From Chthonomonadales bacterium (lineage in GTDB: Bacteria > Armatimonadota > Chthonomonadetes > Chthonomonadales > CAJBBX01), in contig JAAYVH010000027.1 in NCBI GenBank assembly GCA_012517255.1, positions 1 through 59,919 of the forward strand: a stretch of DNA of 59,919 nt, in the 5' to 3' direction. Position 1 is the stretch's first letter. Every line of letters starts with the position of its first letter. Positions 12,830 to 37,122 of this stretch are shown one piece after another. The translations under genes and the position numbers were made by a program. The notes below the pieces were generated by a model. It was not told where the DNA came from. It did not search any database and worked only from the letters and a program-made list of their open reading frames with translations.

Positions 12830-12860
12830 GAGCCGAACTCGACATCCCCCCATAGTTGCT

Positions 12861-12885
12861 CGCTCGATCATGTCCTGATCGAGCG
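12861..12885. repeat. Perfect 10-bp inverted repeat between two envelope genes
   Basis: CGCTCGATCA and TGATCGAGCG flank a 5-nt spacer. It lies just after the stop of the 263-aa gene and at the 5' edge of the barrel gene. With no T-tract it could be an operator, an attenuator or a processing hairpin. One candidate start of the barrel gene (12871) would lie in its loop. Confidence 0.55.
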
Positions 12886-12896
12886 CATATGGATTC

Positions 12897-13688: not shown

Positions 13689-13715
13689 CAAGCTACGTTA
13701 CCTCCCCACATCGCG

Positions 13716-13755: not shown

Positions 13756-16700
13756 TTAGCGCACCAGCGTGACCGGCAGTATCGCCGTCGCGGCGCGGCC
13801 CTCACCATCGGTGGCTGTCAGTTTCACAAGATAGGTTCCGCTCGGCACCGAGATGCCCTTCTGGTCGCGGCCATCCCACAGCAGGACGTTGGCGCCTTCC
13901 GTGGCCGATCTACCCTGCGAGAGCGTCCGAACCACATTGCCGGCGGAGCCGACGATCTGGGCGCGAACCGTCGCCGGTCCGGACAGCGTGTAGGCAAAGG
14001 CGAGGGAGCCTGCCGACCGGCCCGTGGTCTTGAGATCGCTGATGACCAGTCTGCTGTTGGCGGTAACTGGCCGAACGAGCAACGCGAACCTGCGAGCGCC
14101 CGCGTTTTCGCCGGAGTTGAACACGTAGGTGCCCGATGTTGCGAGAGCACGGGTTGTGTTCGTCGCCAGATCCACCAGCGTGATCTCAGCCTTGCGTCCG
14201 AGTACCGCCACGTTCGGGAACGCCAGCGTCACGTCAGCGTTCGCCTTGTTGGTGACAGCCTCGAAGGCAACAACCGTCTGGCCGGCTCTTGTCGGCACCT
14301 GTCCCGCCACCTCGGTCGCCGGTATCTGCTGGATCGAAGCGTATTCGCCGACAAACGGCGGCTTCTCGACGAACGCTCGGGTGGCCGGGCTCAGGCTCAG
14401 ATAGTTGTCTGCGTCGAGCCGATTGTCAAGCCGTGCCGTCACCTGGATGGCGTTGGCGGTCACGTCGGCATCTCTGCTGCCAGCGGCTGCCTTCGTTCCC
14501 GGGGTTGGCAGGATGATCTCGCAGGGCTGCAGCACGCGCACCCAGTAGCCGCGTCCGGGCTTCAGGACGCCGCCCGATTGGATGAGCGTGTAGCCGCCGG
14601 TTGTCGGGTTGTAGCCCCAGGCGTAGGGTCGGAGCACGTCGCCAGCGTTTGCCAACGGCAGGACGTTGCCCTGGAAGCGCACCTGCACGGCGCCCCAGTT
14701 GATGTCCTGGTTGAACACGGAGCCGATCATGTTCCAGCCGGGAGCCACACCGATCGTGTATGGCAACGTCTGATCCCAGATCTTGCCGCGCGGGTTCAGC
14801 GTTACGGCCTCGGTCGGCAGCGTCCAGTATGCACGTCCGCCTCCAGCGCCCGGGAAGGTCGCGTCGCGGTTGAGCGACACATACTTGCCGTTCGGCGGCA
14901 CCGTCGGCGACCAGACAACGAGATCGAGGACAGACACAGGAGCGGTCGACCCATTGCTGCGGACCGGGTTGAAGGTCAGCGACGGATCCGGCGTGACGGG
15001 CACGATCGGCAAGCTGATCATGTCGAGAACGCCGGCGGCAAGCGGCACGGCAGTTCCTGTAACCTTGAACGACGCTTCCGCTGCGGCGGCGTCATACGTT
15101 CCCGGTACGCCTATCCAGTCGAGCTTGACTTTCCAATCGCCCGTCTGGTCCAGCGTGGTGCTGGACGTGTACGTGAACGCGCCATCGGCTGCAGTGGTGA
15201 GGCTCGCCGTCGCTCCGCTGCCGTCGGGCTTCACCAGTTGCACGGCTACCTGCTGAGCGCCGATCGGCGAGTTGGTATCGAGCCGTCCTTGAACCGTTAC
15301 CGTGCCACCGACAACGATGGGACCGCCGGGACCAGCCGGAGGCTGCGAGACGCCGGTGATGACGAAGTAGGCGGTGTTCAGAGTCGGACCTGCGAGGTCA
15401 CCCGCCGCAGGATACCGAACGACCGCATCACTCACGGTGTCCTTGGCCTCGAACCTGTAGGAGTGGTTTCTCTGCCGCTCATCCCGCGGGAAGCGGAACT
15501 TGAACTCATAGAGGACGCCTACGCGGTAGTCGGTGCTTGTAGTCGCCCTGGTCATGTCATGGGCAACGCCGTCAATCAGAACGCGCACATACTGCGGCGC
15601 ATTGTTGTCAGCGTTCGTGTAGATCACCTGGTAGGTGAAGTCCGTCGACGGCGGTCCGAGCTGCGGTTTGAGCGTGCCGTCCGTCGGCGCGCTCAACGCC
15701 AACAGCGCATTCGACACTGTCGGACCGTTGAGATTGTTCAGGCTGGCAGGCGTCAATCCATCGGTCGCCCGGAAGCTGTAGGTATGAGCGCCCACAGCCA
15801 GCTCCATAGACGTGGTGTCGTAGCCGTAAATGACGCCGGTGCGGTAGTCGAATGGACCGGAGCCCTGCGGCGTCAGATTCACGGTCTTCTCTGAAGCCTG
15901 GCCTTCGTCAATCACCAGCTGGATGGACTGCGGCGCCGTGTTGTCCAGATGGGTGTACTTCACCCGGTAGCGGTAGATCGTTGATCGTATGCCAGCTATC
16001 GGGTCCAGCGTCCCGTCATTCGTGTTCGGGTCGGATGGCCCGGGCGCCGCCAGGACCGGAATGTTCCGGACGGACATGTTGGTGATGTTGGAGCCGCCAG
16101 CAGGAAGCTGCACGGTGTCGCCCATCGCTCCCGGTCCGTCGAACGCAACAAACCGGAACTGAATGTCGCCGGGGTCGATGTTCGACAGCTCGAGCTCATA
16201 GACAACACCGTTGGCATAGTCGTTGGAGGTTGCAACCATCGGCCTCGGCGTGCCCTCGTTCAGGATCAGGTGCACATAGTGATCCGCCTCGGGCACGTTC
16301 GGGTTGTTCTGGTCTATGTCTCGGTACGTTATCCGGAACAGGTACCGATCGTTCAGCGTGCCGACAAGCTGCGGCGTCAACTGGTTGTTCGGCCCGACGG
16401 TACTGACCACGCCAGAACCGACCTTGGTCACCTCCACCGTCGAAAGCTCAGGCGGGAAGTTGACCTTGGGGCCGCTGAGCTCACCCGTGGGCGGCAACAG
16501 CACGGTCTGGAAGCGGTCCTGCGCCTCAAACCGGAACGCATGCGTACCCGGCGGCAAGCGCTGCGGATCGCTCTCGTAGATCACGCCGTTCACGTAGTCC
16601 AGCGGATCACCCGTCTTCGGCTTCAGGTCGTAGATCAACGGCACGCCGCTCGGATTGACGATCACCTGGATCCGGTATGGCGCGATGTTGTCGCTGTGCG

Positions 16701-19700
16701 TGTACTTGACGCTGTAGACGTAGGTGTTGGCCTGGTTGCCGCGGTCGGGAGTGACGCTGCCATCAGACAGGGTCATGATCCCAGCGGAGTCGATCTGGAA
16801 CGCTGCCGGTACCGCGGGAACCGGGTCGGCAGGCTCCGTGTCATCCGAGGCCAGGAACTGGTAGATGTGGCTGCCTACCCCTATGGTAGAGCCTGGAATG
16901 GTCCACGTGTATACGACGCCAGCCTTGTAGTCGGCAACCGTCGGGTTTGCAGGCGTGCTGACCGGCTGGACGGCCACCGGCTGGCGGTTGATCTGCAGTT
17001 CCATCCTCGACGGGGCATCGCCCAGCATCGCATCGGTGTACTTGACGCTGAACACGACGTCCTGAGCGGCTGTCGCGGGGTTGGGCGCAACGCTCCAGTC
17101 GCTCAGCACCGGCTTGTCATTGACCAGGAGCTGCTGGTACGGAACGTAGCTCTGGGTCCGATCGCCCTGGAAGCCCACCGTGATCGTGTGCTGCCCAGGC
17201 TCGAGCGGAGCGCTCGGCGCGGTCAACTGGGCCCGGAAGCGCACTCCGTTCTGATAGGCGCCCGGAACGATCGGGTCAATGGCTGTCATCACGGTGTAGG
17301 TGTAGTTTGCCCCCGTCGTATCCGAGACCCACAGCTCGATGGGCCCGCGCCCGCTGTCTTCCGGCGCGCGATCGTCCTGGCTGCGGTACGTTACGGTGAA
17401 CTGGTAGAGCTGGTTGCTGCGGCCCTTCGGGAACGGCTCGATGGTCAGGTCGGTGAGACTGGCCGTGCTGGTGACCACGACCGGAAGATCCGCCGGAATG
17501 GGATCGCCATTCCCGTCGACATCATCGGCGAGAAGCGGACGTCGGCTCATCCCTGCGCCATCGGTTGCCTCGAAGTGATACACGTGATGGCCGATGGGCA
17601 GCGCCGTACCGCCTATGTATCGCACCTTTGTCCGGTAGTCCACCGGCGTCGGCGTATTCGGATCACGCTGCAGCGGGAACCGCGTGTTGTTGTCAACGAC
17701 GAGATAGACGCCCTCGGTCACGCCGTCGGTAAGGATCGGCGGCTGATTGTCGGCGTCGGTGTAGTCAATGGCGAACTGGAAGATGGTTGTGGTGTCGCCC
17801 GTGGTCTGCGAGATGGTCTTGTAGTTCAGCGGTTTGTCGTAAGCGTCAGGCAGATCAAGGACAGGAACGACGTTCTCGTTCACCACCGGTCCCACAGTCT
17901 GTTCGTACCGGTAGGACACCCGCACCACGTCGTTGGGGCCTGCCGTCGGGATGGTGATCCGTCCGGCAGCGCTGTCAACGGAGAAGTCCCCCGGAGCCAG
18001 CAGCGTAGAAACTCCGCCGGACGTCAGCCAGACGAACAGCGTCGGGTCATTGACCCATGCTCGCGTCCCGGCCGGGTCATCGTAGACCGTCGGAGCCACC
18101 ATGCGCAACACGCGAGCGGTGTTCAGTTGCAGCGATGTCGCGCCGGTGCCAACCGTGACCAGATTCGTCTGATCCACGCCGTCGCTCGTGCCAAACCGGA
18201 ACCGGTATTCCTGTCCCAGTCCGGCGGGCGCGAGCCGAATCGGCGCTGCCAGATGATACTGCACTCCGGATGCGTAGTTGGTACCGCTCTCGGACGGGAT
18301 CAGCGAAGTACCAGGGTCGGTGGTCAGGCGCTGGCCCGTGGCGCTGTCGTAGAGCTCGATGAATATCTTCAGGCTGTTCGGCGCATTGTTATCAGCATCC
18401 CGATACCGTACGAAGAAGTCGTACTTCGTCGCGGAGTTGTACGCCGTGTCGCTTGCTGCAACGCTGACCTCGCGGAGCTCTGGCGCGCTGTTGGCAATGA
18501 TCGTCGGACCCTCAATGACGTTGCTCGGGTTGCCGCTGTCGTCGCCTTGCGGGAAGGTCACCCATTCGCCAAACTCCCGGCGTATGGGCCGGTTCGAGGT
18601 CGCCCAGTTATCGCGGAACTGGAAGTAGAAGTTGTACTTGTTCAGCGGAACGCCCGGAAGCTGGTTCAAGACCAACCGGTACCGTCGTCCCTGAGCATAG
18701 CTATTGCCAGCATCCTCCGGAGCCTCGGTCATGCGATAGCGCCAGTGCTCCGGCTTGTTGTTGATGATCACCCATGCATCGGCCGGCGGATCGTTGTCGG
18801 CGTCGCGATACAGCACCTCATACACAAAGGACGTACCGAGAACGCCTGACGAGGGCGTCACCTTGCCGCCCGACAGCTCTGGCCGGTTGTTCACCCACGG
18901 CTCGAGCATGTAGTTCTTGCCAACGCGGTTGACCGATCCGAAGAACAGCGCGTCGTTTCGGTTGGGAAGGCTTGCGCCCTGCGGGTCATCTGCCGGGCGT
19001 CGCGGCCAGATGCAGCGGTTCACGCCATCGTCAGCTTCAAAGTAGATGGCATGTCGCCCCTCGTTGCCCGGCCCTAGCACTGTGTCGTAGTAGTAGAGCA
19101 CGCCCTGAGCGTAGTCTATCGCCCCCTGGTTCGGAGCGACCTGCATCATGTAGGGTCGCATCGAACCGTCGGCCATGCTGCCGATCCACACGCGGACCGT
19201 CAGCGGCCCCGATATGCTGACCTGGGGTACGTGCACCACGCGGACCTGGAACCGAACCTTGGTCTTAGTTGTCACGCGGGAGCGGCGAGCGTTCGACGCG
19301 AGGGTCGTGGTCGGATCATTGTACGGCGGCCACGGTTCTATGTTCAGCAGGTAGTTCGGCGGCTTCTGCAGGTTGCGGTTCTCGATCAGGTCATCCGTCC
19401 AGTGGCCGTCCACCAGGATGGGCGTAACGTACGGATGAACGTAGGGGATCTCCGCGTCCACGTTGCGCGGATCCGGCTCGTCACTGTCCTGCAGGCGTCG
19501 GTACCGCGTCGGGGTCTGCCCCCAGTTCTCTCTGTAGTCCGTCCATCGGCGATTGGGAGGATCCCCCACCGAGGTAGCGAGGAAGTTGTCGGCGTTCTGA
19601 TCGTTGCCGATCGCAGGATCCGGTCGAAAGTCAATGGACGATCGGATGTAGTAGCCCCACTGGCCGGCGCGTCCTCCCACGCCTGTGCTGTAGATCGGCA

Positions 19701-20880: not shown

Positions 20881-20930
20881 ATGTCTCTCCCTCAACCCCA
20901 ACGTAGCTCGTCTATGGGTGGATCCGACCA

Positions 20931-23606
20931 TCAGCGCGTCACCACCAGCGGAGCAACCACACGCGCGGTCTGCCCGTCACCGGATACCGCCTTGATCTCC
21001 ACCGTGTAGGTGCCCGCTGGAACTGCAACGCCCTTGCTGTCGCGCATATCCCAGATGATCTGGGCCAGCTCGGTCCCGCTGGTCGCTCGGCTTGTCAGGC
21101 GTCGAACCGCCGTTCCCGTCGGTCCAAGAACTCGAACGGTGAGCGCTGCGCTCTGAGTCGCCGCCACTGCAATGGTCGCCGTTGACCTGCTCCGGGACGG
21201 CGTGACATTCCACGACGTGATCCTGAAGGCGCCGCCAGCCGATCGCGGCTCTGCCGTGATCGTCAGTGAGCGCGTTCCGGTCGGGCCGGTGTTGATCGTG
21301 ATAGAACTGGCCTGCCGCATCGCGCGGCGTGGGCTGCCTGCATCATCGGCGATGTACAGCTCGTGGGTCTTAGGCAACGTGCCGATCTCGGGCCACGTGA
21401 TGGTCACATCGGTGTTCGGCTCGCGTGAAGTCACGGCTAGACGCCACGTCTTCGCGCCTCCGGCAGGCGATCGCATGTCTTGCGCGTACGCTTCCGCTCG
21501 GCCGCCAGTCTCCTCGCGGACGATGGCCATCGAGACGCTTTCCGCAGGCGCCGGAGGCTTCGCGACGTCCCGAACATCCGATCCGTCGAGAGCGTCGGGG
21601 CCTATCCCGATGAAGTTGCAGGCGTCCGAGGTTACGCCATCCGAAGCCTTCAACCGGAGACGCCAACCGCCGGAAGGCGCCACTGATCGCGACCATGCGG
21701 CGATCTGTGCGGCGCGACCGGTCGGCTTCGTGATGAGCAGCTCCAGGTTCGGCTTGTTAGCCTTGACCCAGTACCCCGCGACGGGCAACAGATCCGTGGC
21801 GTAGTCCTGATCGAACTCGTAGCTGCCCGTCGCCGGATTGTAGCGGAAGATCGCCGACGAGATCCATTGGCGGGTGACGCTCGCTGCATCCTGAACGCTC
21901 AGGGGCACCAGATAGTCAGGATCCGTGGCGTCCGTGTTGATCACGCGCACATCTGCCCAGCGGACGCGGAGCAGATAGGGGTTGGCTACCTGGTTCCACC
22001 CGCGGGCCAGCTTCACGCTGAAGTCCCCGGTGGGCGTCTGCACGGGCTGCGGGTCGTTGAGCGTCAGCGTCGAGTTATTCGAAAGGCGCAGCCAGTAGCC
22101 TTCGCCCGGATTGATGTACTGAACGGCCTGGTAGTGACCTGCGGCCGCGTTCCACCGCACGAGGTCATAGAAGCCGGATCCCAGCTGGATAGCGCCGGCG
22201 GGCGTCCGGTCGTCCAGCACGTAGGGGAACGAGACCATCTGCCAGCCCGCACCGAACTCCTGCGACGGCAAGGCTGGGATGTCAATGTCCCTGGCTACGC
22301 TGATGCCCTGGCCGCCGGGATCGGCGCTGATCGCCACAGAATAGGTCAGACGTCCGGAAATCGTCCCGGTTGGCACCACGTCCCACTTGAAGGTCGCTTC
22401 GCCGTCGGCTCCAATGGTCGCCACGGTCTTTAGCGACGTCTGGCCGGCCGCCAGCTTGAGACCCTCAGGCAACGACAGCACGGCCCTAACGTTGCCGATT
22501 GCCACGGTGTTCATGTTGTGGACGAACGCCGTGATCGCCATCGGGTTGGGCTGAAGCTGCTTGTCGGCCGGTTGCGACGGATCGTACGTCAAAGAAGGCG
22601 GTCCTTCAAGGCCCGCCGCAAGCCGCTGGCCGAACTCATATGCGGCGCCTGCTGCACCGAACACCATCGTCACGTCGCGCTTCTGCCCCGGAGCGTACTG
22701 CACCGGATTGTAGTAGACAGCCGCGGAGCCGTCCAGAAGGTCCCCCACGAACTCCTCGCCGGCAGTCGGGGTGAAGTCCCAAATAGACCCGGCAACGTTC
22801 TTGGTCAGCCCGAATACGAGCCGGTCCGGCCGCGTCGGATATGGCGAGCTCCCGCTCGGCAACAGGCTTGCACCAACGGTACTGGGGCTCTGCGCAGCCG
22901 CCGCGCGCCAGTAGGCGGGGATGAAGGTGCTGATCAGCGAAGTCTCGGTCCTGATCATGCCAGTGCGCGAGGTCATGACGGGACCATCAACGCTCTGGGG
23001 CACCGCGAAGTCCTGTGCGAAGCGCAGACCGACCGTGTGGGGTCGCGTGTCCTTATTGGTGACGGTGAAGGTGTACAGAACCATGTCGTACACCAGCCGC
23101 ATCTTCAGGTCAACCTGTATCTCAGGAATGGCGGGATCGGCCTCGGCGTCCGGTATCGTTCTCCACTTGGCCACGATCACCGTTGGGCTCACGACTGTCG
23201 GCACCTGCACCCACTCACCCGTGATATCCGTGTCCTCGGTGTCCTCATATCCCCACGCGATGTCCCAGCCGGGTACGCCTTCCGCCACAGTGCCATCTGC
23301 GAGGAATGGGGTGCCTCCGTCGATCCGGACCGTAACATAGCTTCCGATCTGCCCCAGATCCGTCGAGCGCGGCAACTGGAGCAGGACGCCGCCAGACTGG
23401 CCCGCTTCCACGATTCCGAATCTGCCGGCCACATTCACGCTGTTAAGATCATCCTCCTGGCCCACGGAAGCCGCCAGCTTGGAGTTCTGGATCGTGACAA
23501 GCGTCTGGCCCCATGCCGGCCGCATTGTGCCGGCCACCAGCGCCAATCCGGCCACCATCGCCGCAACCGGCATAATCCGCTTGCTGCGTGCGCTAAGCCA
23601 CCCCAT
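20931..23606 (-). CDS. Exported protein (891 aa) with C-terminal FlgD-like sorting-type cassette
   Basis: Function not recognised. ATG 23606 follows GGGGAGGA and begins a signal peptide (IMPVAAMVAGLALVAGTMRPAWG). The N-terminal ~450 residues are rich in beta-strand patterns, for example IVEAGQSGGVLLQLP and MVLYTFTVTNKDTRPHTVGLRF, the latter like a galactose-mutarotase or surface-layer fold. From about residue 450 the shared cassette starts: GWQMVSFPYVL, GEGYWLRL, GWNQVANPYLL, GYWVKAN, DVRDVAKPPAP, then a FlgD-like module (IIWDMRDSKGVAVPAGTYTV) ending in VVTR. The gaps to its neighbours are 71 and 50 nt, so it is likely co-transcribed with the subtilase and the 2374-aa protein. Confidence 0.75.
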   Translation of the reverse strand: MGWLSARSKRIMPVAAMVAGLALVAGTMRPAWGQTLVTIQNSKLAASVGQEDDLNSVNVAGRFGIVEAGQSGGVLLQLPRSTDLGQIGSYVTVRIDGGTPFLADGTVAEGVPGWDIAWGYEDTEDTDITGEWVQVPTVVSPTVIVAKWRTIPDAEADPAIPEIQVDLKMRLVYDMVLYTFTVTNKDTRPHTVGLRFAQDFAVPQSVDGPVMTSRTGMIRTETSLISTFIPAYWRAAAAQSPSTVGASLLPSGSSPYPTRPDRLVFGLTKNVAGSIWDFTPTAGEEFVGDLLDGSAAVYYNPVQYAPGQKRDVTMVFGAAGAAYEFGQRLAAGLEGPPSLTYDPSQPADKQLQPNPMAITAFVHNMNTVAIGNVRAVLSLPEGLKLAAGQTSLKTVATIGADGEATFKWDVVPTGTISGRLTYSVAISADPGGQGISVARDIDIPALPSQEFGAGWQMVSFPYVLDDRTPAGAIQLGSGFYDLVRWNAAAGHYQAVQYINPGEGYWLRLSNNSTLTLNDPQPVQTPTGDFSVKLARGWNQVANPYLLRVRWADVRVINTDATDPDYLVPLSVQDAASVTRQWISSAIFRYNPATGSYEFDQDYATDLLPVAGYWVKANKPNLELLITKPTGRAAQIAAWSRSVAPSGGWRLRLKASDGVTSDACNFIGIGPDALDGSDVRDVAKPPAPAESVSMAIVREETGGRAEAYAQDMRSPAGGAKTWRLAVTSREPNTDVTITWPEIGTLPKTHELYIADDAGSPRRAMRQASSITINTGPTGTRSLTITAEPRSAGGAFRITSWNVTPSRSRSTATIAVAATQSAALTVRVLGPTGTAVRRLTSRATSGTELAQIIWDMRDSKGVAVPAGTYTVEIKAVSGDGQTARVVAPLVVTR

Positions 23607-23677
23607 CAATCGTTCCTCCCCTATGGCCTCTGCCGTAGCTGCCTGGCCGACACACCTTCTTGTCGCTCGCACGTCCA

Positions 23678-26600
23678 TCACCGAACCATCGAGAACGGCT
23701 GGATCACGCGGACGACATCACCATCTGATCCGATCGCCTTGATCTGCATCAGGTACGTGCCCGCAGGAACGCTGCGGCCTGCGGCATCGCGACCACCCCA
23801 TACGAGGTTGATGTCACCTGCCTGAGCGGCCCGAGAGCCGACCGTCGCGACCGGTCTGCCGTCGGCGCCAAGCACTCGCACGTCGTAGGTCGCCGCATTC
23901 GACAACGTAAACCCGATCTGCACCGCGCCGGTTGCGCGCGTCGATCCCGTGCGCACCGCCACGTTGGTGATCCGCGTAGCGTTGCCCGTAGCCGGGACTG
24001 CGCTAACCTTGAACAGCCTCGGGGTCGGATTGGGGCCCGCATTGAACGTCACCGACGCGCGGGTCCGCATGTCAACCGTCTGACCGGTCGCCACGTCGGT
24101 CCAGAGGAGCTTGACATTCCTTGGCCACGACGCAACCGCATTCCAGCGAACCGTCACATCCGCATTGGCCACATCGGTACTGACCACCACATCCCAGACC
24201 TTTTGACCGCCAGCGGAACGCATGTCCTGCGCGAGCAGTCCGCCGCTGACATCCGAGTTCTGGATACCGACCGTGACATATGGGCTCACCATCGGAGGCT
24301 TGGCAACATCCGCGAGATCGCGGCCATCCGACGCTCCCGACGAAACACCCAGGAAGTTGTAGGTGTCGTTCTGGCCGGCTGTCGATGCGGCTAGCCGCAA
24401 CTTCCAGCCCGAACGATCGGCAACACTGGCAACAGCCGTGGCCGACCGCGTTGCGCGGGCCGGGGGAACGACCAGCGCGATATCGGCCTGAGTCGTAACG
24501 CCGATCCAGTGGCCTTCCCATGCGCGCAGTGCGCCATCGGGCAGTGTTCGGAACGTGTAGCCATTGGCGCCGTCGTACGAGAAGATGTTCGGAAGCACGT
24601 ACCCGCGGTCGACGGCAGCGCCGATCGTGATGCGGCCTTCAGGCGTGTCCACAAGCAGCGCGTTGAACGGCACATCAAACGGGAACGGGCATCCCACCAT
24701 GTTCCAGTTGATCGGCACCCCCAGGCTGCCGCGGCCACGCAACGGGATGATGAACGGCTTGGCAGGCATGGCCTGACCTTTGGTCAGCACAGGCTTGACC
24801 GACTCCGTATCGGCCCAGAAAGCAAGGCCGACCGGGTACTTCGGCGCAGGATCGCCCTCGGGACGCGGCCTGACGTCGGGCGGGCTGAAGGACGCTCCCG
24901 GATCGGTTCCGACCATCGGCGCGTAGATTGCGTAGCGGTTTTCCAGAGGCATCCATCGCGCCAGCCGGAACGTCAGGCCGAAGTACGTCTCCGGGGTTGC
25001 GTCTTCCTGATAGTAGGGTATCGAGATCAGCGAGCGGCCTGCTGCGATCTGCCGCGGCTGGATGACAAACTTGCGCGTATCGGTGACAACGCGATCCGGC
25101 GGACCGGGCTTGACGCCTGACACTTCGACCACATTCTGGCCCGCTGGCATGTCTACGCCCTGAATCACCGCTTCGTACACTACCGGCACATCGTTGCCCT
25201 GGAGGTCCTTTACCGTCCGGGTGACATTCTCGACCGTCCACGAAGTAACGATCGCGCCGTTCAGCTTCACGGTGAGATTCGAGGGTTCTATCTGATTCAC
25301 GGCGATCCGAATGAGAGGTCGCATCGTCTCGACGGGATCCGGATTCCTTGGGATACCACCCTGCGAGGCCTTCCCACCCGTGCCGTCGGGCTCTACGACC
25401 GTGACGCTAACCCCTGCCTTGAGCAGCGCGGCGTAGGCATCGATGACCCCGTAGCCGTAGGCATCGCTCGGGACCGTCGTCATCATCGAGCGGTCAGCGG
25501 TGCTCGTCAGTGCTTCCTTGATTTCCGAGGGCGCAGCGCCAGCGCTCAGCAGCAGAGCAACCACGCCTGCAGCGTTGGGAGCGGCCATAGAGGTGCCCTG
25601 CAGGAACTCATAGCCGCCGCTCGAGAGCAGGTAGGTGCTCAGCACGCCATCCGTCGGCGCGGTCTCTTGATTCCCGCCAGGCGCGGTGATGGTCGTGTAC
25701 TTCCGAGCCGACGAGTAGGGAGCCTGACGCTTCAGCTTATCGCACGCGGCCACGCAGATGATGTTCGGCTCGAGCTGCGCCAGATAGGCCGGCGTGATGG
25801 GAGGGTTTCCGTCCGTGAAGCTATTGCCAGCCGCGATGGTGAAGACCACCCCTGCACGCGCCATCTGGACGATCTTGGCCTCATCCGGCGGGAGCTGCGC
25901 CGGCGGCGTATCGGAAGTCGTCGGCGCGCCGAGGCTCATATTGACGGCGTGAACGCCCTGTGTCTGCGCATACTGGAGCGCATCGACAATGGCGGTGATC
26001 GTAGTGCCGCCGTCTCCGCCCTTCAGCGGGAGAACCTTCACCCCCTCGTACGCGACCCCCGCGACGCCAATGCCGTTGTTCGTCGCAGCCACGATCGTCC
26101 CAATGACATGGGTGCCATGTCCGTCATTGTCCGTGACATCGGTGGTCGAACCGCCGCTGGCGTTGTAACCCGGCAGCAGGCGTCCCTGGAGGTCCGGATG
26201 GCTCACCGTCACGCCTGAGTCCACAACGCCAACGATGATGCCGTCCTTTCCCTTCTCGAGGTCCCACGCCTGAGGCATGTTCATCAGGGGGAGGTGCCAC
26301 TGCTCGCGGTACCGAGGATCGTTGGGCACGGTATCAAGATAACGATAGATACGGTTCGTGCCGACCCAGCGGAACAGAGGGCTTGGCTTCAGCGCGTTGA
26401 CGGCATCCGTGGTTTGCGCTGCGGTAGGCGCCGCGCCGCCCGCCGATTTGACACGAAGCAGGTAGACGCCCGGCATCAGGCACGCACGCACGAACTCGCA
26501 GTTCGCATCGGCGCCGGCGTTGCGCACGGCGGCCTCGGACACGCCGTCCTGCGCCCACACAACCACTTCCCCCGGCACAAATGCCGGGGCGTCAGCGGCA

Positions 26601-26680
26601 AGCGCCGGGCCGCCGGTCAACAGCAGTCCCAGGCCCGCCGCAAGGCACACCTGCGCACAGATTCGAAGCCACTTGTTCAT
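23678..26680 (-). CDS. Secreted subtilisin-like serine protease (S8) with C-terminal FlgD-like sorting-type cassette
   Basis: Exported S8 peptidase, 1000 aa, with an RBS (GAGGAG) before ATG 26680 and a signal peptide (AQVCLAAGLGLLLTGGPALA). An I9-like propeptide region spans about 35-110. The catalytic triad is intact: Asp154 (GVVDSGV), His188 (DGHGTHVIGT) and Ser364 (QGTSMAAPNAAGVVALLL), with the oxyanion Asn in AAGNS (about 286). From about residue 545 the protein carries the cassette found in three neighbours: SLISIPYYQ, NWNMVGCPFPF, GHWIGV, DLADVAKPPMV and a FlgD-like module (LVWGGRDAAGRSVPAGTYLM) ending in SMVR. A cell-surface protease that processes or matures the other cluster proteins is plausible but unproven. 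Confidence 0.9.
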   Translation of the reverse strand: MNKWLRICAQVCLAAGLGLLLTGGPALAADAPAFVPGEVVVWAQDGVSEAAVRNAGADANCEFVRACLMPGVYLLRVKSAGGAAPTAAQTTDAVNALKPSPLFRWVGTNRIYRYLDTVPNDPRYREQWHLPLMNMPQAWDLEKGKDGIIVGVVDSGVTVSHPDLQGRLLPGYNASGGSTTDVTDNDGHGTHVIGTIVAATNNGIGVAGVAYEGVKVLPLKGGDGGTTITAIVDALQYAQTQGVHAVNMSLGAPTTSDTPPAQLPPDEAKIVQMARAGVVFTIAAGNSFTDGNPPITPAYLAQLEPNIICVAACDKLKRQAPYSSARKYTTITAPGGNQETAPTDGVLSTYLLSSGGYEFLQGTSMAAPNAAGVVALLLSAGAAPSEIKEALTSTADRSMMTTVPSDAYGYGVIDAYAALLKAGVSVTVVEPDGTGGKASQGGIPRNPDPVETMRPLIRIAVNQIEPSNLTVKLNGAIVTSWTVENVTRTVKDLQGNDVPVVYEAVIQGVDMPAGQNVVEVSGVKPGPPDRVVTDTRKFVIQPRQIAAGRSLISIPYYQEDATPETYFGLTFRLARWMPLENRYAIYAPMVGTDPGASFSPPDVRPRPEGDPAPKYPVGLAFWADTESVKPVLTKGQAMPAKPFIIPLRGRGSLGVPINWNMVGCPFPFDVPFNALLVDTPEGRITIGAAVDRGYVLPNIFSYDGANGYTFRTLPDGALRAWEGHWIGVTTQADIALVVPPARATRSATAVASVADRSGWKLRLAASTAGQNDTYNFLGVSSGASDGRDLADVAKPPMVSPYVTVGIQNSDVSGGLLAQDMRSAGGQKVWDVVVSTDVANADVTVRWNAVASWPRNVKLLWTDVATGQTVDMRTRASVTFNAGPNPTPRLFKVSAVPATGNATRITNVAVRTGSTRATGAVQIGFTLSNAATYDVRVLGADGRPVATVGSRAAQAGDINLVWGGRDAAGRSVPAGTYLMQIKAIGSDGDVVRVIQPFSMVR

Positions 26681-26771
26681 GCTTGCTAAGCTCCTCTCAC
26701 GCTAACCGTTGTGGCGGGCGTCGCTCCGAACGAAGTGACGCCCTGCCATGTCTCGTGCCGTCGCTCGATAC

Positions 26772-28691
26772 CTACGGGGGTGGAGGCGGCATGTCGGCGG
26801 GCGTGAAGCTCCGCACTTCGGAATACACATAACGGAAGGTGCGGTCACCATCCGCATGGTTACGCGTGATCCAATGCACCGGCCCGGGCCGATCCTCGTC
26901 GTTCCGACCGCCGACGCGCCAGTAGATCGTCGGCTTTGCGGCGCCGGGGACGCGGTTCACGTAGTTGGCGAACACCGGATCCTTCAGCAGGACAGGATTT
27001 GTCGTCAGATCGACTGCGCTTCCCAGTACCTGGGTGACGCCTGTTGCCAGCGGCGCCGTCGAATAGACCCGCGGCAGTTGGAGGATCAGCGACTTGTTCT
27101 TGAACGTCCTGTCTGTGCTGACCTCTACTACGAACACGTCCGCGCCGGTGGTGCTCATCCACGTCGGGTTGAACCTCGTCAGGTCGACGTTGCTGTACAG
27201 GTTCTCCGGCATTACCAGCAAGGGCTGGGCAATCGGCGTCACACTCCCCGACGGAACCGGCGAGGTTCCGACGTCTTCGGTGCCGACCTGATTGTTGCCG
27301 CCGCCGCCCTGATTGCCGCCGGTATTGCTGACGGCGAGGGGCCGACGAATGACAGCCGTGAGCGCATACGTGTAGGTCCGTCCGACTGTGAAACCAGGAA
27401 CCGCACCGGCCTCAGGCGTCACGACCTCAGCCTCCGTGCCGCCGTTATTGCCTGTGCCGCCTCCGGTACCGGGCAGCGGAGCTCGCAGGAAGCTGCGCGT
27501 GCCGTCCCAGTAGCTGTACGGAGCAGCGCGGTCCACATAGCGAGGCTCGTACTGCTTGGACGCGATGGGCTCGCCCTGGAAGTTGTAAGGGGCGTCGGGT
27601 ACGCGCCATATCTGGTGTTCTAGCGTCGTTGCGCCCCAGAAGTTGTCGCGCCAGGTGATGCGGACCGTCGGCTCGACACCCTCGACGTCCGCTTCGGCAG
27701 TGACGCCCGTCACGCTCGTGTTCTTGCCGCCCATGACGGCCGCCGCGATTACGACGCCGGCCGCGAGCACGACCAGAACCTTACCCAGAGATGCCACGGA
27801 TCCGCGTGCCGGTGCGGGCTCGGTCTTAATGCCCTTCACTCCCGGGATTGCGGCGAACACCGGCATCGCCATGATCGCCCTGACCTTATCCTCGGGCCGG
27901 ATACCCAGCGTGTTCTCAACCACCTTGGCTTCGGAGTCCGTCGAGAAGACATTGGTGATCTGGATCTTGCCGACCCTTTGCCCCTCGCGGGTCACCAGCA
28001 TCTGCTGGCCGGCTTGCACGCCATCGCGTGATCCGCGGTTCACGAGTATCTGCAGGCTGCTCTGCGGTCCCACGGTGCTCACGATGGTGCCGTCGGGCAG
28101 ATTGGTCGAGAGGATCTGCTTCACCGCGAGCACAGCCGCGTTGTCCACAGCCTCCTGCGCCAGCGACTCATCGTCACTCTGGCCTGGCCGGCCACGGACC
28201 TCGCCCACCTGGGCGGCCCCATTCACGAGCTCCTGTGAGCCTGGCGCGCGCACCATTACCTTCAGTCCGGCGAGCACGCGCTTCGGATCCGACTTGGCGA
28301 CCGTGTTTACGAAGCTGACCTCGCCCGTGACGATGGCCGTCGCGCCGAACGCGGCTGCCAGTCTGTCCTGAGCAACGCGATCGTAGGGACGCTTCAGGCC
28401 CAGCGTGGCCGCCTGCCGCTCAACCTCGTCTCTCCTGAGGACCTCAAAGCGGGCTGAGTTCGCCAGTTCGACTGCCACCGCGTCTGTTGCTCGTCGGGCC
28501 AGCGCCTCGCCGAGAAAACCGGCCTTGTTGACGAAGTCAATCACAACCGCAGTTTGCAGACCCGTTGCCACCGGCGTTTGCGCATATGCGGCGTCCGGGC
28601 CGATCATTCGGCAGGCCATCGGAGCCAGCATGGCTACCGTCAGGACCCAGCTCACAGCCCGGGCGACCCTGCTTCTTCTGATCCGTTTCAC
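26772..28691 (-). CDS. CsgG/FlgT-like envelope protein with internal membrane segment
   Basis: A 639-aa protein. The start is GTG 28691, fixed by GGGAGG 10 nt upstream, which gives a signal peptide (VSWVLTVAMLAPMACRMIGPDAAYAQ). Residues 40-190 resemble the CsgG/FlgT middle domain (AVVIDFVNKAGFLGEALARRATDAVAVELANS, EVLRRDEVERQ, AAAFGATAIVTGEVSFV). Residues about 210-285 look like the FlgT C-terminal SH3-like domain (LQILVNRGSRDGVQAGQQML, GKIQITNVF). A hydrophobic segment (VLVVLAAGVVIAAAVMGG) follows, then a fibronectin-like region and a Pro-rich tail. CsgG forms an outer-membrane pore and FlgT a flagellar outer ring; neither role can be assumed here. Its position among four large exported proteins sharing a terminal cassette suggests a role in assembling or exporting them. 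Confidence 0.65.
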   Translation of the reverse strand: MKRIRRSRVARAVSWVLTVAMLAPMACRMIGPDAAYAQTPVATGLQTAVVIDFVNKAGFLGEALARRATDAVAVELANSARFEVLRRDEVERQAATLGLKRPYDRVAQDRLAAAFGATAIVTGEVSFVNTVAKSDPKRVLAGLKVMVRAPGSQELVNGAAQVGEVRGRPGQSDDESLAQEAVDNAAVLAVKQILSTNLPDGTIVSTVGPQSSLQILVNRGSRDGVQAGQQMLVTREGQRVGKIQITNVFSTDSEAKVVENTLGIRPEDKVRAIMAMPVFAAIPGVKGIKTEPAPARGSVASLGKVLVVLAAGVVIAAAVMGGKNTSVTGVTAEADVEGVEPTVRITWRDNFWGATTLEHQIWRVPDAPYNFQGEPIASKQYEPRYVDRAAPYSYWDGTRSFLRAPLPGTGGGTGNNGGTEAEVVTPEAGAVPGFTVGRTYTYALTAVIRRPLAVSNTGGNQGGGGNNQVGTEDVGTSPVPSGSVTPIAQPLLVMPENLYSNVDLTRFNPTWMSTTGADVFVVEVSTDRTFKNKSLILQLPRVYSTAPLATGVTQVLGSAVDLTTNPVLLKDPVFANYVNRVPGAAKPTIYWRVGGRNDEDRPGPVHWITRNHADGDRTFRYVYSEVRSFTPADMPPPPP

Positions 28692-28841
28692 TCTGAGAGT
28701 TCCTCCCTGGATCACATTCCCCACGGTCCGCGCTCTTCGCCGGTGCCGCAGCAAACGTTGCATCTCGTTCTGGGCGAGCTTACAGCCCGCCTTACTCGCC
28801 ACTTGTTGGTGGCGCTATTCCACCCGACACTTCAGGTTGCA

Positions 28842-28864
28842 GGGCCGCACATCCCGTGCGGCCC
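28842..28864. terminator. Hairpin after the 1868-aa gene
   Basis: Perfect 9-bp stem GGGCCGCAC/GTGCGGCCC with a 5-nt loop, directly downstream of the minus-strand stop at 28875. No T-tract follows. It lies in a 183-bp gap that separates the first gene of the block from the CsgG/FlgT-like gene, so transcription may be attenuated or re-initiated here. Confidence 0.5.
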
Positions 28865-28874
28865 ATCTACCTGG

Positions 28875-31800
28875 CTACCTCGTCAGTATGATCTGCGTCA
28901 ACGCACGTGCGGTCTGCTTGCCGTCCGGCGTCTGTGCGCGTATCTCAACGCGGTAGGCGCCAGCGGGCATGGTGATACCCCGGCTGTCCCGCTGATCCCA
29001 CCGCACCTGCTGCTGACCAGCCGCACGGCTCGTTCCCGCCGGCAGCGTCCGGACCACGGCACCGGAACTGCTGAGGATGCGCACGGTCACCGTTGCAGCA
29101 GTCGAGGTCACGAAGCTGATCTCGGCGCCCGAACCTCTTCCGTTTTGCGTCGCCCGGGCGTCGGTGATCCTGAGCGCGGACCGATCCAGCATCGCCATCT
29201 CGATGCGGAACTTGCGCTCACTGACCGCGCCGTCCGTCTGCCAACTATACCCACTACTGGACCGCATATCCCGCTGTACACCCGTCGCGACATCGACGAG
29301 GGTCAATGCGGCGTTTCGACCGGCTGTCGCAATGTCAGGCCAGGTGAGAGTGGCCGTGCCGCCGACACCCGCCGTGGTCACGGTAAACTCCCAAACCCGC
29401 GGCGTGTTCGACGCCGACCGGATGTCCACGCCATAGCCGCCCGACCGGTCGCCCCAATCGGCATGATCGAAGGTGACCCGCACGAACCGATCGCCGAATG
29501 CCGGCGGCTTCTCGCCCTTGTATGCGTCGAAGCCCTCCGCCGCACCGGTTGCGACGCCGAACTGGTTGCCCGCATCCCGGAGACCGCCCGCTTCAGCTAT
29601 GAGGTTGACCGACCAGCCCTGCGCACCTCTCAGCACCGCGCGGCTCGTGGCGCTCTGAGCTGCACGGCCATACCGTCCGATCACCGGATCGAGCCTCAAC
29701 GTGACGTTTCGGTACGCTCGCACCCAGTAACCACGCCACGGCGCGATCTTGTAGTCCAGGATGTAGCTGCCGGAGACGTAGGTGTATAGAGCCGAGCCGA
29801 TGGCTCCCGTTGCTATGGCATCGTTGAACGGCTTCACTGACCCGCCGTCCACGACGAAGGACTTCGTCCAATCCAGATCGAACAGGAACGGATTCCCGAT
29901 CAGGTTCCAGCCAACGTTCAGCGGAATGTCGAACGGCCTGCTCGTGTCCGCCACGGTCCCTTCCTGGCTTAGCGGTATGTTGTTCTTGTAGGCCATGAAG
30001 TAGCCGCGTCCCGACCGGAACGAGTTGACGCCAGCCTGCGGATAATAGCGGTATCGCTGGAGATCCCACGTCGCGAGCAAGAAGCTTCCGTTGGTCCGAT
30101 CGGCGGGCGGGATGCTGAGGAGATCGCCGGCATCCACCGCGCTGTAGTCATAAGGCGTCGATACCAGCGTCAGCGAGCCCGAGAACGTGTGGAGCGGCTC
30201 CATCTGGAAGTTCACGTTGCGAGTCTCCGTCTGGCTGTCCACCTTCGCTTGCCGCGAGGCAGGCACCGGCGTGAAGCCCTGAGCGGAGACCATGACTGTG
30301 TAGGTCACACCCGCCGGCACGTCTTCCAGCTTGTAGTTGTAGGTGTAGCCGCCGCTGGACACGGCCGTGGTCGTCGTGCCCTCGGCAACCAGATTGCCTG
30401 CAGGATCCCGCACCTCGACACGCACGCCAGCCTGCGCCACGCCGTCACTGGTCCTCGTGACGAGGCCAGAGATGGAGCCAGGCGGGATGGTGGCCAGCTT
30501 GATCGTCGGAACCGTGGCTGTCTCGTTGCTGTTGACGGTTACCGTCTGAGGCGCGCTCGGGCTGTAGCCAGCCGCCGCCGCCACAAATCCCCACGAGCCC
30601 GGATCGAGCCCGTTGGGCGGGGTGTTGTTCTTGCTGAACGAGTAGTTGCCGTTGGCGTCGGTTATCGCAGTGACGTTCGTGGTGCCCTGTGTTGCCGTCA
30701 CGGTTGCGCCAGCAATCGGCTGATCCGTCGCTTCAGCTAGGACACGCCCGGTCGCACCGCCTTGCTCAGCCTTGAGCTTGAAGTTGAAGCCGGTATAGAC
30801 CTTGGCGGGCTGCAGAACCGTATCGCGCTGCCCCTGAATGGGGTCATTCGGGTTCGGCACCGGGTAGCTAACCGGGATGCTCTCGCCGTAGCCGACCGCA
30901 GTACAGGTCAGCGTGTAGGTCGTCTGCGAGGGCACGCGGCTGATCGTGTAGTCGCCGTTCGCGTCTGTCGTAGCTGTGAAGGTCGCATTCGGCGGCAACA
31001 CGTCGGTCAGCGTAACCGTCGCGCCAACCACCGGTGTGGTGCCGTCCAGGCGGGTCACCTTGCCTGTGACAACGGCCGGTTCCGCCTTGGTCATCCTGAA
31101 GCTGATGTCGTCGCGCGCAGCACCGTGGACCACCACGCCCGTCCGCTTTTGGATCGTATAGCCGGGCTTCATCGCGGAGATCTCGTACGCCGCCGGCTCG
31201 ACGCCGTTGATGAAGAACGAGCCATCGTCAGCGGTCATCGCGGTGTAGGCCGTTACCAACTGGCTGCCGCTCTGCCTGTTCGAGAGCCGAACCAGCGCGT
31301 TCGACAGCGGCGCGCCGGCGTTCTCGACGTCAAGAACCGTCCCCGTGATCGTCCCGGTTCTCGCCCAGCAGACGAAGTTGTGGAACAGCTCGCTGCGCCG
31401 GTTCTTGAGGGCGATTGTGTTCTGCGTGTTTGCGGGGCTCCACCAATCGGGGAACAGGCCCTCAAGGCCCATCGGGCTGTAGACGAGCCTGCTTCCGGTC
31501 GCGGGATCCAGATAATAGTGGACCGCGGTGCCTCCCCCGCCGTAGGTGAGAACAGGCACAGCGCCCGTCAGAGAGTTCACGACATCCGGATAGAAGTTGC
31601 CCGGACACGCCAGAGCCCGCGGATTGTTGCTGTCGCTGCCTGCCGCCACGTAGTTGGTCGCGGCGGATATGGGATGGAAGTTGCCCGGCGGCTCGGGCGG
31701 CCCCGGATACACATGCTGCGACGACAGGAAGGTGCCCGGGATGTTCACCCATGGATCATGCGAAATCGGGTTGTACGCTCCGGCCGGTGTCAGCGCGTAT

Positions 31801-34481
31801 GCGCTCGAAATCCCGAAGAAGATCCCGAAACCGCCGCCGCCAACCCGGAAGTACGTGAATCCGGCATCGTCGCGAACATACTGCGCCTTAAGAGCGTTCG
31901 TCAGGAAGGTGTTGCTCGTGGCCCCATCGAGCGTCAGCGCCCAGCCGATATCCTGGCCGTTGACTAGCAGCCGCCCGCCGGCATTGAGGAAGCCGGTGAG
32001 CTGGGTCTGCGTTGCGAGATCGGTCAGCGTCCCGGGTCCAGCAAACACGTTCCCTGTGTACGGCGCGTGCCATATCACGCATCGGGGAGCGACCGTAACC
32101 GTTCTCGGCGTGGTCTCGCCTGCAATCACGTCCGGCGGCTGCTGGGCCGTGTGAGGCAGATACTGCGCGAGGACCGAGTCAGGCACAGGCCCGCGGCAGA
32201 GGATGCGCCAGATGTCGTATTGCTGCGTCGAGGGCACATCCACCCCGTCCACAACGGTGCCATCCCATAGATCGGAGTCCGCCCCACGAGCTGTGAACGG
32301 GTCGCGAGGATCGAACGCTCCGTAGGACTTCACGCCCAGGGCATTGAGGACGTTCACGAGACTGCCGATGGTGGTGTTGTTCTGATAGCTGCGCGGCAGC
32401 AGGTTGACGTCAATGTCCGTCATCCAGCTCTCCGTGCCCCAGAACGTGTGGCGCACATTGACCAGCGCCGCCTCGCCAAAGCGGGAAGCAAAGAACTTCT
32501 GGCCGGCCGCGTAGTCGCTGACGAACAGGATGCCGCGCCCCGCCTGGAACGGTTGCGTCGAGAAGCCCCAGACGTTGTCGTAGATTTTCCAGTTGATCGT
32601 GTCTCCGCTAAACGGATCCACGGCATTGTCATAGACGATGACGTCTATGTGGTAGTCGCTGGGCGTGGTGGGTGTCGTCCACGTTGCGGCGTAGGTCTGA
32701 ACTCCCGTAACGGGATCGCGCGACTCAAAGCTTAGCTTCAGCCACGAAGCATCGGGCGGGTTGTTCCCTCCCGTGAAAGCCCAGAAGTCCGCCTGGCTCG
32801 CCACGTAGCGCGGGTTCGCGTAGGTATTGACCCGCGGGTCGGACGGGTCATTTCCAATGAAGATGCGCTGGGCCTCATACTCCACGGGAACGCTGAGCGC
32901 CACGTTGTTCTGGTCGAGGTTCAGGCCGGCGCCGACATACACCTTGTGCTCGACACCGTCGGCCGACTGGTACTTGCTGTTCGGGTTCTTGATCTGAACC
33001 CAGACGTCGCGGACGCCGGTCTCAAGATCGGCGACTTTCACCGATATTCTGACGGGCGTGCCGGGGATCGCAAGCCGCGGCTCGACTCGGACCACTTCGC
33101 CCGAAGTCTCATCGAAGCGCACCAGCGTAGGCGCATTCAGGTCCATCAGCGTCGAGGCGAAGATGTCCGTGGGCGTCGTCGGCGTCGGATTTGCCGGCTG
33201 CGAGACCTGGTTCACCGGATCAAACGACGTGCGATTCGATTGGAAGATGACGCGATAGCTGCCGATGAACTGCGGCCAGACCGGCTTCCGGTCGTCATAG
33301 ACATGTCCAGGGTCGCCGGTGGGCAGCTTGAACGCAGCATTCGCGCCCGACTCCGGCGTCGTCACCGTCAGCCAGCCGTCGGGCCCCTGCGCGATCGTAA
33401 CCTTCAGCCAGTAGATATCATGAACGTCGGAAGAGCTCACGGCGTTGGCGTTGCCGTCGTTTGCCGTGTCCAAGCGAGTCGATGCGAATGCGATGAGCTG
33501 CTGGCCGTTGACGAAGCCGCTCGTGTCGAGCTTGTTGGTGCTCCACGACGGCTCGATATTGGACGACTGAGATCCGCCGACGCCGAAGTTGGTGACGCGG
33601 GTCGCCGGCGCGGGCCTATCAGCCGGGATCACCCAGATGTCTCGCGTCGCCTTCACGGCGGATCCCTGCGGGTTGGACCGGTTCGAGTCGAACGCGATCA
33701 CCGAGTTCATCTGCGAGGTGCCCACAGCCGGGCTGAGCGTCGGATTCCGGTCGTCGGAAACGCCCGTCGTGACCTGCTGAACCCTGCCGCTCTGCGTATC
33801 AACCGCGTAGATCTTGAACGGACCGCCTGCGGTGGTTCGACCGGCGAACAGCACGGCGATGTTGGCTCCGGCCCACACGCCGTACTGGGGTCCGCTCAAT
33901 GCCACAAACGAGTAGCCGTCGGCGTTGTTCTTGACGAGGGATCGCGTCGTGCGCGTTCCGAGATCGAGCTCGACGATGTCCACGGAGCCGCCGGCAGTCT
34001 CAACGTAGACAATCTTGTTGCCGGCTGCATTGGCCGCCGGCTCCGTCTGGCTCGTGCTCTCGCCCACTTTGCCCTGTGACAGAGGCCCCGTGATCGCAAC
34101 CACGGCAGCCCCGGCAGGTGTCATGCGATAGATGTGATACAGCGTGCCTGCGGCCGATCCTGCCAGATTGCTGCGGTTCGAGTGGAAGTAGACGCTGTTC
34201 TCGTCCTGCGTCCAGAAAGGCGCCCCGTCCGTCACGAGAGGAGTCTTCGGCGTAATGACAATCGTGGCCTTGGTCGTTTCAGCCCGGGTTTGCTTCACGG
34301 GCTTGGCGGTGACCTCACGCGGCATGGGGGCAGTGGTACTGACGAATGGCGGCCCCTTCGGAGGTTGGACACCGCCCCAGAGACCGTCTCCCTGAGCGAA
34401 CGCCGGGGCTAAGCAGGCTATGGCGAGCAATGGGGAGACCAGTGTGATGGAGCAGAGGTGGGTCAGTCTCACTCTTTTCAA
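28875..34481 (-). CDS. Giant exported protein (1868 aa): TolB-like propeller, carboxypeptidase-regulatory repeats, FlgD-like sorting-type cassette
   Basis: First gene of the envelope block. The start is TTG 34481, fixed by GGAGG 11 nt upstream and by a signal peptide (TLVSPLLAIACLAPAFAQ). No ATG fits. The N-terminal ~400 residues contain WD40/PD40-like repeats (VYFHSNRSNL, IAFDSNRSN, VIFQSNRTSF) as in TolB-type propellers. A middle ~550-aa region is not recognised (it includes ILFVSDYAAGQKFF). About four carboxypeptidase-regulatory-like Ig repeats follow (GTVLDVENAGAPLSNALVRL, GKVTRLDGTTPVVGATVTL, GRVLAEATDQPIAGATVTA, GLVTRTSDGVAQAGVRVEV). The cassette covers the last ~435 aa: LTLVSTPYD, GWNLIGNPFLFDLDW, GYWVRAYR and a FlgD-like module (QVRWDQRDSRGITMPAGAY) ending in ILTR. 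Probably surface exposed; ligand unknown. Confidence 0.8.
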   Translation of the reverse strand: MKRVRLTHLCSITLVSPLLAIACLAPAFAQGDGLWGGVQPPKGPPFVSTTAPMPREVTAKPVKQTRAETTKATIVITPKTPLVTDGAPFWTQDENSVYFHSNRSNLAGSAAGTLYHIYRMTPAGAAVVAITGPLSQGKVGESTSQTEPAANAAGNKIVYVETAGGSVDIVELDLGTRTTRSLVKNNADGYSFVALSGPQYGVWAGANIAVLFAGRTTAGGPFKIYAVDTQSGRVQQVTTGVSDDRNPTLSPAVGTSQMNSVIAFDSNRSNPQGSAVKATRDIWVIPADRPAPATRVTNFGVGGSQSSNIEPSWSTNKLDTSGFVNGQQLIAFASTRLDTANDGNANAVSSSDVHDIYWLKVTIAQGPDGWLTVTTPESGANAAFKLPTGDPGHVYDDRKPVWPQFIGSYRVIFQSNRTSFDPVNQVSQPANPTPTTPTDIFASTLMDLNAPTLVRFDETSGEVVRVEPRLAIPGTPVRISVKVADLETGVRDVWVQIKNPNSKYQSADGVEHKVYVGAGLNLDQNNVALSVPVEYEAQRIFIGNDPSDPRVNTYANPRYVASQADFWAFTGGNNPPDASWLKLSFESRDPVTGVQTYAATWTTPTTPSDYHIDVIVYDNAVDPFSGDTINWKIYDNVWGFSTQPFQAGRGILFVSDYAAGQKFFASRFGEAALVNVRHTFWGTESWMTDIDVNLLPRSYQNNTTIGSLVNVLNALGVKSYGAFDPRDPFTARGADSDLWDGTVVDGVDVPSTQQYDIWRILCRGPVPDSVLAQYLPHTAQQPPDVIAGETTPRTVTVAPRCVIWHAPYTGNVFAGPGTLTDLATQTQLTGFLNAGGRLLVNGQDIGWALTLDGATSNTFLTNALKAQYVRDDAGFTYFRVGGGGFGIFFGISSAYALTPAGAYNPISHDPWVNIPGTFLSSQHVYPGPPEPPGNFHPISAATNYVAAGSDSNNPRALACPGNFYPDVVNSLTGAVPVLTYGGGGTAVHYYLDPATGSRLVYSPMGLEGLFPDWWSPANTQNTIALKNRRSELFHNFVCWARTGTITGTVLDVENAGAPLSNALVRLSNRQSGSQLVTAYTAMTADDGSFFINGVEPAAYEISAMKPGYTIQKRTGVVVHGAARDDISFRMTKAEPAVVTGKVTRLDGTTPVVGATVTLTDVLPPNATFTATTDANGDYTISRVPSQTTYTLTCTAVGYGESIPVSYPVPNPNDPIQGQRDTVLQPAKVYTGFNFKLKAEQGGATGRVLAEATDQPIAGATVTATQGTTNVTAITDANGNYSFSKNNTPPNGLDPGSWGFVAAAAGYSPSAPQTVTVNSNETATVPTIKLATIPPGSISGLVTRTSDGVAQAGVRVEVRDPAGNLVAEGTTTTAVSSGGYTYNYKLEDVPAGVTYTVMVSAQGFTPVPASRQAKVDSQTETRNVNFQMEPLHTFSGSLTLVSTPYDYSAVDAGDLLSIPPADRTNGSFLLATWDLQRYRYYPQAGVNSFRSGRGYFMAYKNNIPLSQEGTVADTSRPFDIPLNVGWNLIGNPFLFDLDWTKSFVVDGGSVKPFNDAIATGAIGSALYTYVSGSYILDYKIAPWRGYWVRAYRNVTLRLDPVIGRYGRAAQSATSRAVLRGAQGWSVNLIAEAGGLRDAGNQFGVATGAAEGFDAYKGEKPPAFGDRFVRVTFDHADWGDRSGGYGVDIRSASNTPRVWEFTVTTAGVGGTATLTWPDIATAGRNAALTLVDVATGVQRDMRSSSGYSWQTDGAVSERKFRIEMAMLDRSALRITDARATQNGRGSGAEISFVTSTAATVTVRILSSSGAVVRTLPAGTSRAAGQQQVRWDQRDSRGITMPAGAYRVEIRAQTPDGKQTARALTQIILTR

Positions 34482-35302: not shown

Positions 35303-35327
35303 GCGACGTCGCTTTGGGGCTGCCGCG

Positions 35328-36884: not shown

Positions 36885-37015
36885 AGCAACATCTCTCCTC
36901 TCGTGGCGTGCATCCAACCGTATGCTTCACGCCTGCGTACAGTCATGGCGGGCCGTGTACCGCCGGCGCCGTGCTGACGACAGCACGGGGACCCGCCCGA
37001 TAGCACATCGCCGGG

Positions 37016-37021: not shown

Positions 37022-37122
37022 GTTTAGACGCTTCACCGGCAGATTCCTTCTACTTCACGCAACAAAATGTCCTGCCGACTCGCGCGGCCTGTCGCCTGTC
37101 CTTTATGACGGAGCGACCCAAG

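Follow-up and report, generated by a model that had tools for sequence, protein, structure and literature searches.

The window analysed here is a stretch of 59,919 nucleotides from a Chthonomonadales bacterium (phylum Armatimonadota), and it corresponds to contig C56 (JAAYVH010000027.1) of a 4.77-Mb genome in 327 contigs (GCA_012517255.1). On its minus strand lie, in this order, polA, rpsA, coaE, P1, P5, P2, P3, P4, a gene for a protein of 264 amino acids (aa), and a gene for a 720-aa outer-membrane barrel. P1-P4 are large exported proteins that end in a common C-terminal cassette of 432-458 aa, which is the subject of this report. In the original prediction, made from the sequence alone, this tail was taken for a sorting or cell-surface attachment signal and compared with the tails of the type IX secretion system (T9SS). 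The placement of all four genes on the minus strand was correct, but the lengths of 891 and 2374 aa given for P3 and P4 start at internal methionines, and the first starts give 916 and 2391 aa (Table 1).

The shared tail of P1-P4 and its predicted fold

The tails of P1-P4 align end to end with pairwise identities of 28-32% (BLAST E 1e-37 to 1e-56), which bears out the predicted common cassette, and the N-terminal parts, described as unrelated, indeed gave no pairwise BLAST match better than E 0.2. Among the six-frame open reading frames (ORFs) of the window, a profile built from the four tails matched P1-P4 only. Signal peptides were read from the sequences of all four proteins. A crude signal-peptide test was positive in 63 of 110 carriers, many of whose ORFs are cut at the N-terminus; one control gene was also positive, and the test was relied on for P1-P4 only. 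An internal position, carriers without export signals or tails that fail to align had been named beforehand as signs against a sorting role; the cassette was found to be terminal, on window proteins with signal peptides and alignable throughout.

An AlphaFold2 model of the P3 tail, computed with 25 related tails, has a mean predicted local distance difference test (pLDDT) score of 88 and a predicted template modelling (pTM) score of 0.72. The predicted strands form four beta units, namely D1 (residues 1-80), D2 (about 81-186), D3 (about 200-345, behind a low-confidence linker) and D4 (346-445). The GWN and GYW motifs noted earlier are present, and the region that holds them is, on the hhalign comparison of D1 with D2 (probability 95, E 5e-8), a tandem duplication. 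The 'KPP' and 'DMRS' motifs are both located in D3; the form D-x-DVAKPP, attributed to several of the proteins, occurs in two of the four, P1 having GEKPP and P4 VEKPP instead. A profile search of the PDB with D1-D3 gave no match.

The last unit, D4, had been read as an immunoglobulin (Ig) module like that of FlgD, and FlgD_ig (PF13860) was found at the end of P1-P4 with 31.6-44.7 bits against a curated cut-off of 27 bits. It had also been likened to type IX tails; the PDB profile search with D4 placed FlgD (E 1e-10) nearer than PorU, which matched weakly (E 0.004). Foldseek with the model of the whole cassette returned generic Ig and fibronectin type III (FnIII) folds, with PorU at rank 11; this comparison was not used as a sign of kinship.

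P1-P4 all terminate in (V/L/M)(T/V)R, in line with the (V/L/M)xR ending described before. The same strictness was observed in 102 distinct closed cassette ORFs from the fetched loci, a set skewed to good matches and not a random sample: the cassette match lies at most 3 residues from the C-terminus in 98 and exactly at the end in 88, and the last residue is arginine (Arg) in 95. Clustering of the tails on their final 40 residues, with a threshold of 60% identity, left Arg at the end of 42 of 48. Within cassettes the Arg share is 6.7%, and the consensus C-terminus reads R-x-V-x-P-(L/I/V)-(V/I)-(V/L)-T-R-stop. A terminal Arg is not required by the Ig fold alone, and its conservation in these sequences suggests that the free C-terminus of the cassette is recognised.

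Distribution of the cassette in Armatimonadota

The cassette was detected in 275 of 291 Armatimonadota genomes. In the host genome, where a search beyond the window had been proposed, two further exported-type proteins end in it, which brings the number to six. Above the cut-off, FlgD_ig is confined in this genome to these six cassettes, and D4 always stands behind D1-D3. Based on 24 genomes in which copies were counted, positive genomes hold 2-58, the highest counts being 33 and 58, and one genome (G195) holds none. The N-terminal parts of the carriers vary across the phylum and include subtilases, NHL propellers and unknown domains. Outside Armatimonadota genomes the search covered plasmids only, against which the P3 cassette gave no tblastn match. 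Tails with GWN/GYW and 'KPP' modules presumably occur in other FCB-group phyla.

These data bear on the reading of the cassette as a generic structural tail, made of common beta-sandwich and Ig modules that spread by duplication and have no sorting or anchoring role. The Foldseek matches to generic Ig/FnIII folds and the frequency of the FlgD-Ig fold among exported proteins agree with it, but a strict end position and a terminal Arg kept at about 30% identity across the phylum, the lack of a stand-alone FlgD-Ig domain in the host genome and the non-random linkage to outer-membrane barrels described below make it improbable.

The conserved operon and two outer-membrane barrels linked to cassette genes

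The gene order of the operon is retained in distant Armatimonadota families, and its shortest form, in genome G076, consists of S1, CoaE, P5, a single cassette protein and the LptD-like barrel. Sixteen loci were retrieved by this barrel alone; 14 of them hold enough upstream sequence for a cassette count, and an upstream cassette gene is present in 13, the exception being locus L083. P5 is present in every cassette operon. It gave no match in the Pfam scan and has an LpoB/CsgG-like N-terminus, a TsaP/FlgT_C-like middle part and FN3-like parts. Two further genes of the window lie on the plus strand. At 9202-10797, a 531-aa protein with zinc-ribbon motifs flanking a beta-type carbonic anhydrase domain is encoded next to the operon, as it is in relatives. 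At 3501-7940 lies the gene of an exported metallopeptidase of the fungalysin type (M36; 1479 aa), which has two P-domains and Big_3_5 repeats but no cassette.

Table 1. Positions in the window of the cassette proteins, the units of the P3 cassette and the neighbouring genes
Feature	Position	Strand	Description
coaE, rpsA (S1), polA	34694..39837	-	Upstream of the operon; order kept across the phylum
P1	28875..34481	-	1868 aa; signal peptide, TolB-like propeller region, carboxypeptidase-regulatory-like repeats, cassette; phylum-conserved
P1 cassette	28878..30191	-	438 aa; C-terminal ILTR
P5	26772..28802	-	676 aa; exported, without cassette; LpoB/CsgG-like, FlgT_C/TsaP-like and FN3 parts
P2	23678..26680	-	1000 aa; signal peptide, subtilase (S8) with triad motifs DSGV/HGTHV/GTSMAAP, cassette
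P2 cassette	23681..25054	-	458 aa; C-terminal SMVR
P3	20931..23681	-	916 aa (891 aa from internal Met); beta-rich, exported, cassette
P3 cassette	20934..22268	-	445 aa; C-terminal VVTR; chosen for structure prediction
D1 + D2 of P3	21711..22268	-	Tandem GWN/GYW modules (strand order; hhalign of D1 vs D2)
D3 of P3	21234..21671	-	'KPP' beta-sandwich; without Pfam family
D4 of P3	20934..21233	-	FlgD-type Ig domain; PxGTY motif, terminal Arg
P4	13756..20931	-	2391 aa (2374 aa from internal Met); giant repeat protein, cassette
P4 cassette	13759..15054	-	432 aa; C-terminal TLVR
264-aa protein	12897..13691	-	Exported; hydrophobic stretch at C-terminus; conserved operon member
LptD-like barrel	10814..12976	-	Outer-membrane barrel; Big_1 domain of the intimin/invasin type at the N-terminus; closes the operon

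The 720-aa protein at the operon end carries a Big_1 domain at the N-terminus in 17 of 17 homologues. Its profile matched LptD in the PDB (7omm, E 1.8e-5) and also LptA, and Foldseek with its model, which has a pLDDT of only 76 and a pTM of 0.53, returned LptD at all of ranks 1-15 (E 9e-15 to 9e-11). LptD_N was found in 4 of 17 family members, with a best E of 0.0025. Of 291 Armatimonadota genomes, 280 have the barrel, whereas a search of 31 genomes, the host included, with PF04453 gave no match. On these results, the protein is probably the LptD of Armatimonadota, not recognised before. It shares with known LptD an LptA/LptD_N-like region followed by a barrel, and differs in being missed by PF04453, in its N-terminal Big_1 domain and in its operon with cassette proteins.

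Linkage to a second barrel was also observed. The weak SprA matches trace back to the SprA-domain barrel family, whose members are proteins of 780-1260 aa with a barrel-like C-terminal half and one or two SprA-type domains of about 100 residues. A full-length copy is present in 17 genomes, and in 7 of these (G007, G191, G203, G208, G227, G246 and G270, from seven families) it lies at most about 5 kb from a cassette gene. Random placement predicts 0.45 such genomes, and a count of seven was never reached in 200,000 random draws; the test takes neither phylogeny nor contig breaks into account. The row also holds, in G203 and G208, CsaB-like and LptC/LptA-like genes, named by sequence inspection. 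Members of the family were seen at loci L091, L096, L097 and L154, with CsaB-like genes nearby and a cassette gene in several genomes; in the host genome, the CsaB-like gene adjoins the barrel (L091, G000:C319:32000-38000). G195, of family f22, has neither a detectable cassette nor an SprA-domain barrel; f22 is a case of natural loss or an outgroup.

Membership in type IX secretion was not supported. SprA/Sov (TIGR04189) was above the cut-off in 0 of 291 genomes, although the control genomes held no positive either, and the listed matches are nearly all limited to one domain of about 100 residues. GldM/PorM was found in 0 of 41 genomes, again with no positive among the controls. The PorV/PorQ family gave matches in 13 of 41 genomes, all below the cut-off (best 72.7 vs 90 bits). 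No Peptidase_C25 of the PorU type was found in the host genome, and with the type A tail model TIGR04183, P2 (13.9 bits) and P4 (12.7 bits) stayed below the cut-off of 23, P1 and P3 having no listed match. On these results for SprA, PorV, GldM and C25, a canonical T9SS was not accepted. Loci L092 (G000:C49), L099, L100 and L102 encode PorV/PorQ-family (UPF0164/FadL-like) proteins that score under the NCBIfam threshold. Gingipain-family (C25) peptidases, which need not be PorU, were recorded for 11 of 41 relatives (L087-L090 and others).

A true but diverged T9SS, in which the SprA-domain barrel would be Sov/SprA and the PorV/PorQ-like proteins its shuttles, is very improbable. All ten scanned barrels (780-1110 aa) match TIGR04189 locally, PorV_fam matches reach 73 bits and the barrel neighbours cassette genes, which would suit such a system. 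Against it, the best of these local matches is 75 bits where the cut-off is 200, barrels of 780-1260 aa face 2319 model positions, and a PDB search with the barrel profile, taken as far as E 10, returned no chain; GldM gave no match in 41 genomes, with no positive among the controls, and C25 none in the host genome. The linked barrel was not accepted as SprA, the shared part being one small domain that is also related to the phage-tail families TIGR02217 and DUF2460.

Another reading is that of a structural anchoring or assembly module. The cassette would then be a fixed joint that links a few envelope proteins to each other, to lipopolysaccharide (LPS) or to barrels, as a coat or bridge, and not a transport signal; it would be terminal because the working N-terminal parts face away from the membrane. 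P1-P5 share one phylum-conserved operon with the LptD-like barrel, cassette genes elsewhere are grouped with SprA-domain-barrel, CsaB-like and LptC/LptA-like genes, P5 resembles the envelope proteins LpoB and TsaP, and many genomes have only 2-6 copies. However, the near-invariant terminal Arg suggests that a free C-terminus is recognised, and 33-58 copies on diverse proteins in some genomes suit a general tag. We consider this module a possible, tentatively held explanation.

Proposed function and comparison with known systems

The reading that we favour, at about even confidence, is that the cassette is an Armatimonadota-wide C-terminal tag for sorting or anchoring at the outer membrane, which follows a logic like that of the T9SS C-terminal domain (CTD) and uses machinery of its own. 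Carriers would cross the inner membrane by Sec via their N-terminal signal peptides. The tail would then be recognised at the outer membrane, above all through D4 and the C-terminal strand ending in Arg, and would place the carriers on the cell surface or fix them to it; translocation and surface exposure might proceed with or without cleavage of the tail. Gene linkage points to two candidate receptors, the LptD-like barrel at the operon end and the SprA-domain barrel beside another cassette gene. The sorting or attachment signal of the original prediction thus fits a strict tail on unrelated exported proteins, spread across the phylum, with a terminal Arg, a FlgD-Ig end and barrel linkage, while its function stays at the level of an inference.

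Several observations weigh against this tag. The cassette exceeds a T9SS CTD in length by a factor of 4-5, the host genome has no FlgD-Ig domain that stands on its own, and PxGTY is a general FlgD-Ig motif. Low copy numbers, 2-6 in many genomes, suit a fixed envelope set as well as a general tag. No cassette gene was seen beside the SprA-domain barrel in 10 of the 17 genomes. In G195 and its f22 relatives the LptD-like barrel is present and the cassette was not detected, and therefore this barrel cannot serve cassette proteins only. A more far-reaching version of the tag hypothesis is rather unlikely. It holds that Armatimonadota have their own outer-membrane export system, in which the cassette with its terminal Arg would be the necessary and sufficient signal, the SprA-domain or LptD-like (Big_1) barrel the translocon or attachment site, and surface LPS the place to which the cargo is delivered or joined.

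C-terminal sorting tails are already known, and the cassette is a previously undescribed variant within the open-access literature, in which no description of the cassette, of the LptD-like barrel of the phylum or of the linkage between cassette and barrel was found. A terminal tail that runs through a whole phylum of distant diderms without a recognisable T9SS, with a near-invariant last residue, would mean that C-terminal sorting evolved independently or that it shares an older root with FlgD-Ig tails. For Armatimonadota, whose envelope has hardly been studied, the analysis provides a list of putative surface proteins together with candidates for LptD and for an export barrel, all of which can be examined in cultured strains. 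For the cultured member Fimbriimonas, an LPS-bearing diderm envelope, a type II system and the absence of a sortase have been described (PMC4072686).

Compared with the FlgD Ig-like domain, D4 passes the curated PF13860 cut-off in P1-P4 and has FlgD as its best PDB sequence match, but it ends exported surface-type proteins behind D1-D3 and does not serve in flagellar hook assembly. The T9SS and its tails have been placed in Bacteroidota only (PMC4793230, PMC10202324). It was reported that the tail is an Ig domain whose extreme C-terminus is needed, the loss of two residues blocking RgpB secretion, and that it has conserved basic residues at its end as well as a conserved PxGxY motif (PMC5445135, PMC10202324). 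With the type A CTD (TIGR04183/PF18962), the cassette shares an Ig-type domain at the extreme C-terminus of unrelated Sec-exported proteins. Motif D (PxGxY) has a counterpart in PxGTY of the cassette, which is general to FlgD-Ig domains, and both tails close with a conserved basic residue. The cassette differs in its four domains and 432-458 aa, in its sub-cut-off scores, in a terminal Arg (95 of 102) in place of motif E (KxxxK), and in a phylum without a recognisable T9SS core. Type B tails need more than 200 residues, have the cognate barrel gene adjacent and are probably uncleaved (PMC10202324). The cassette resembles the type B CTD (TIGR04131/PF13585) in being a large C-terminal region whose genes are clustered with a barrel, although no TIGR04131 or PF13585 match was reported for the window proteins. 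By analogy, the type B tail is a nearer model than type A for the 430-residue cassette.
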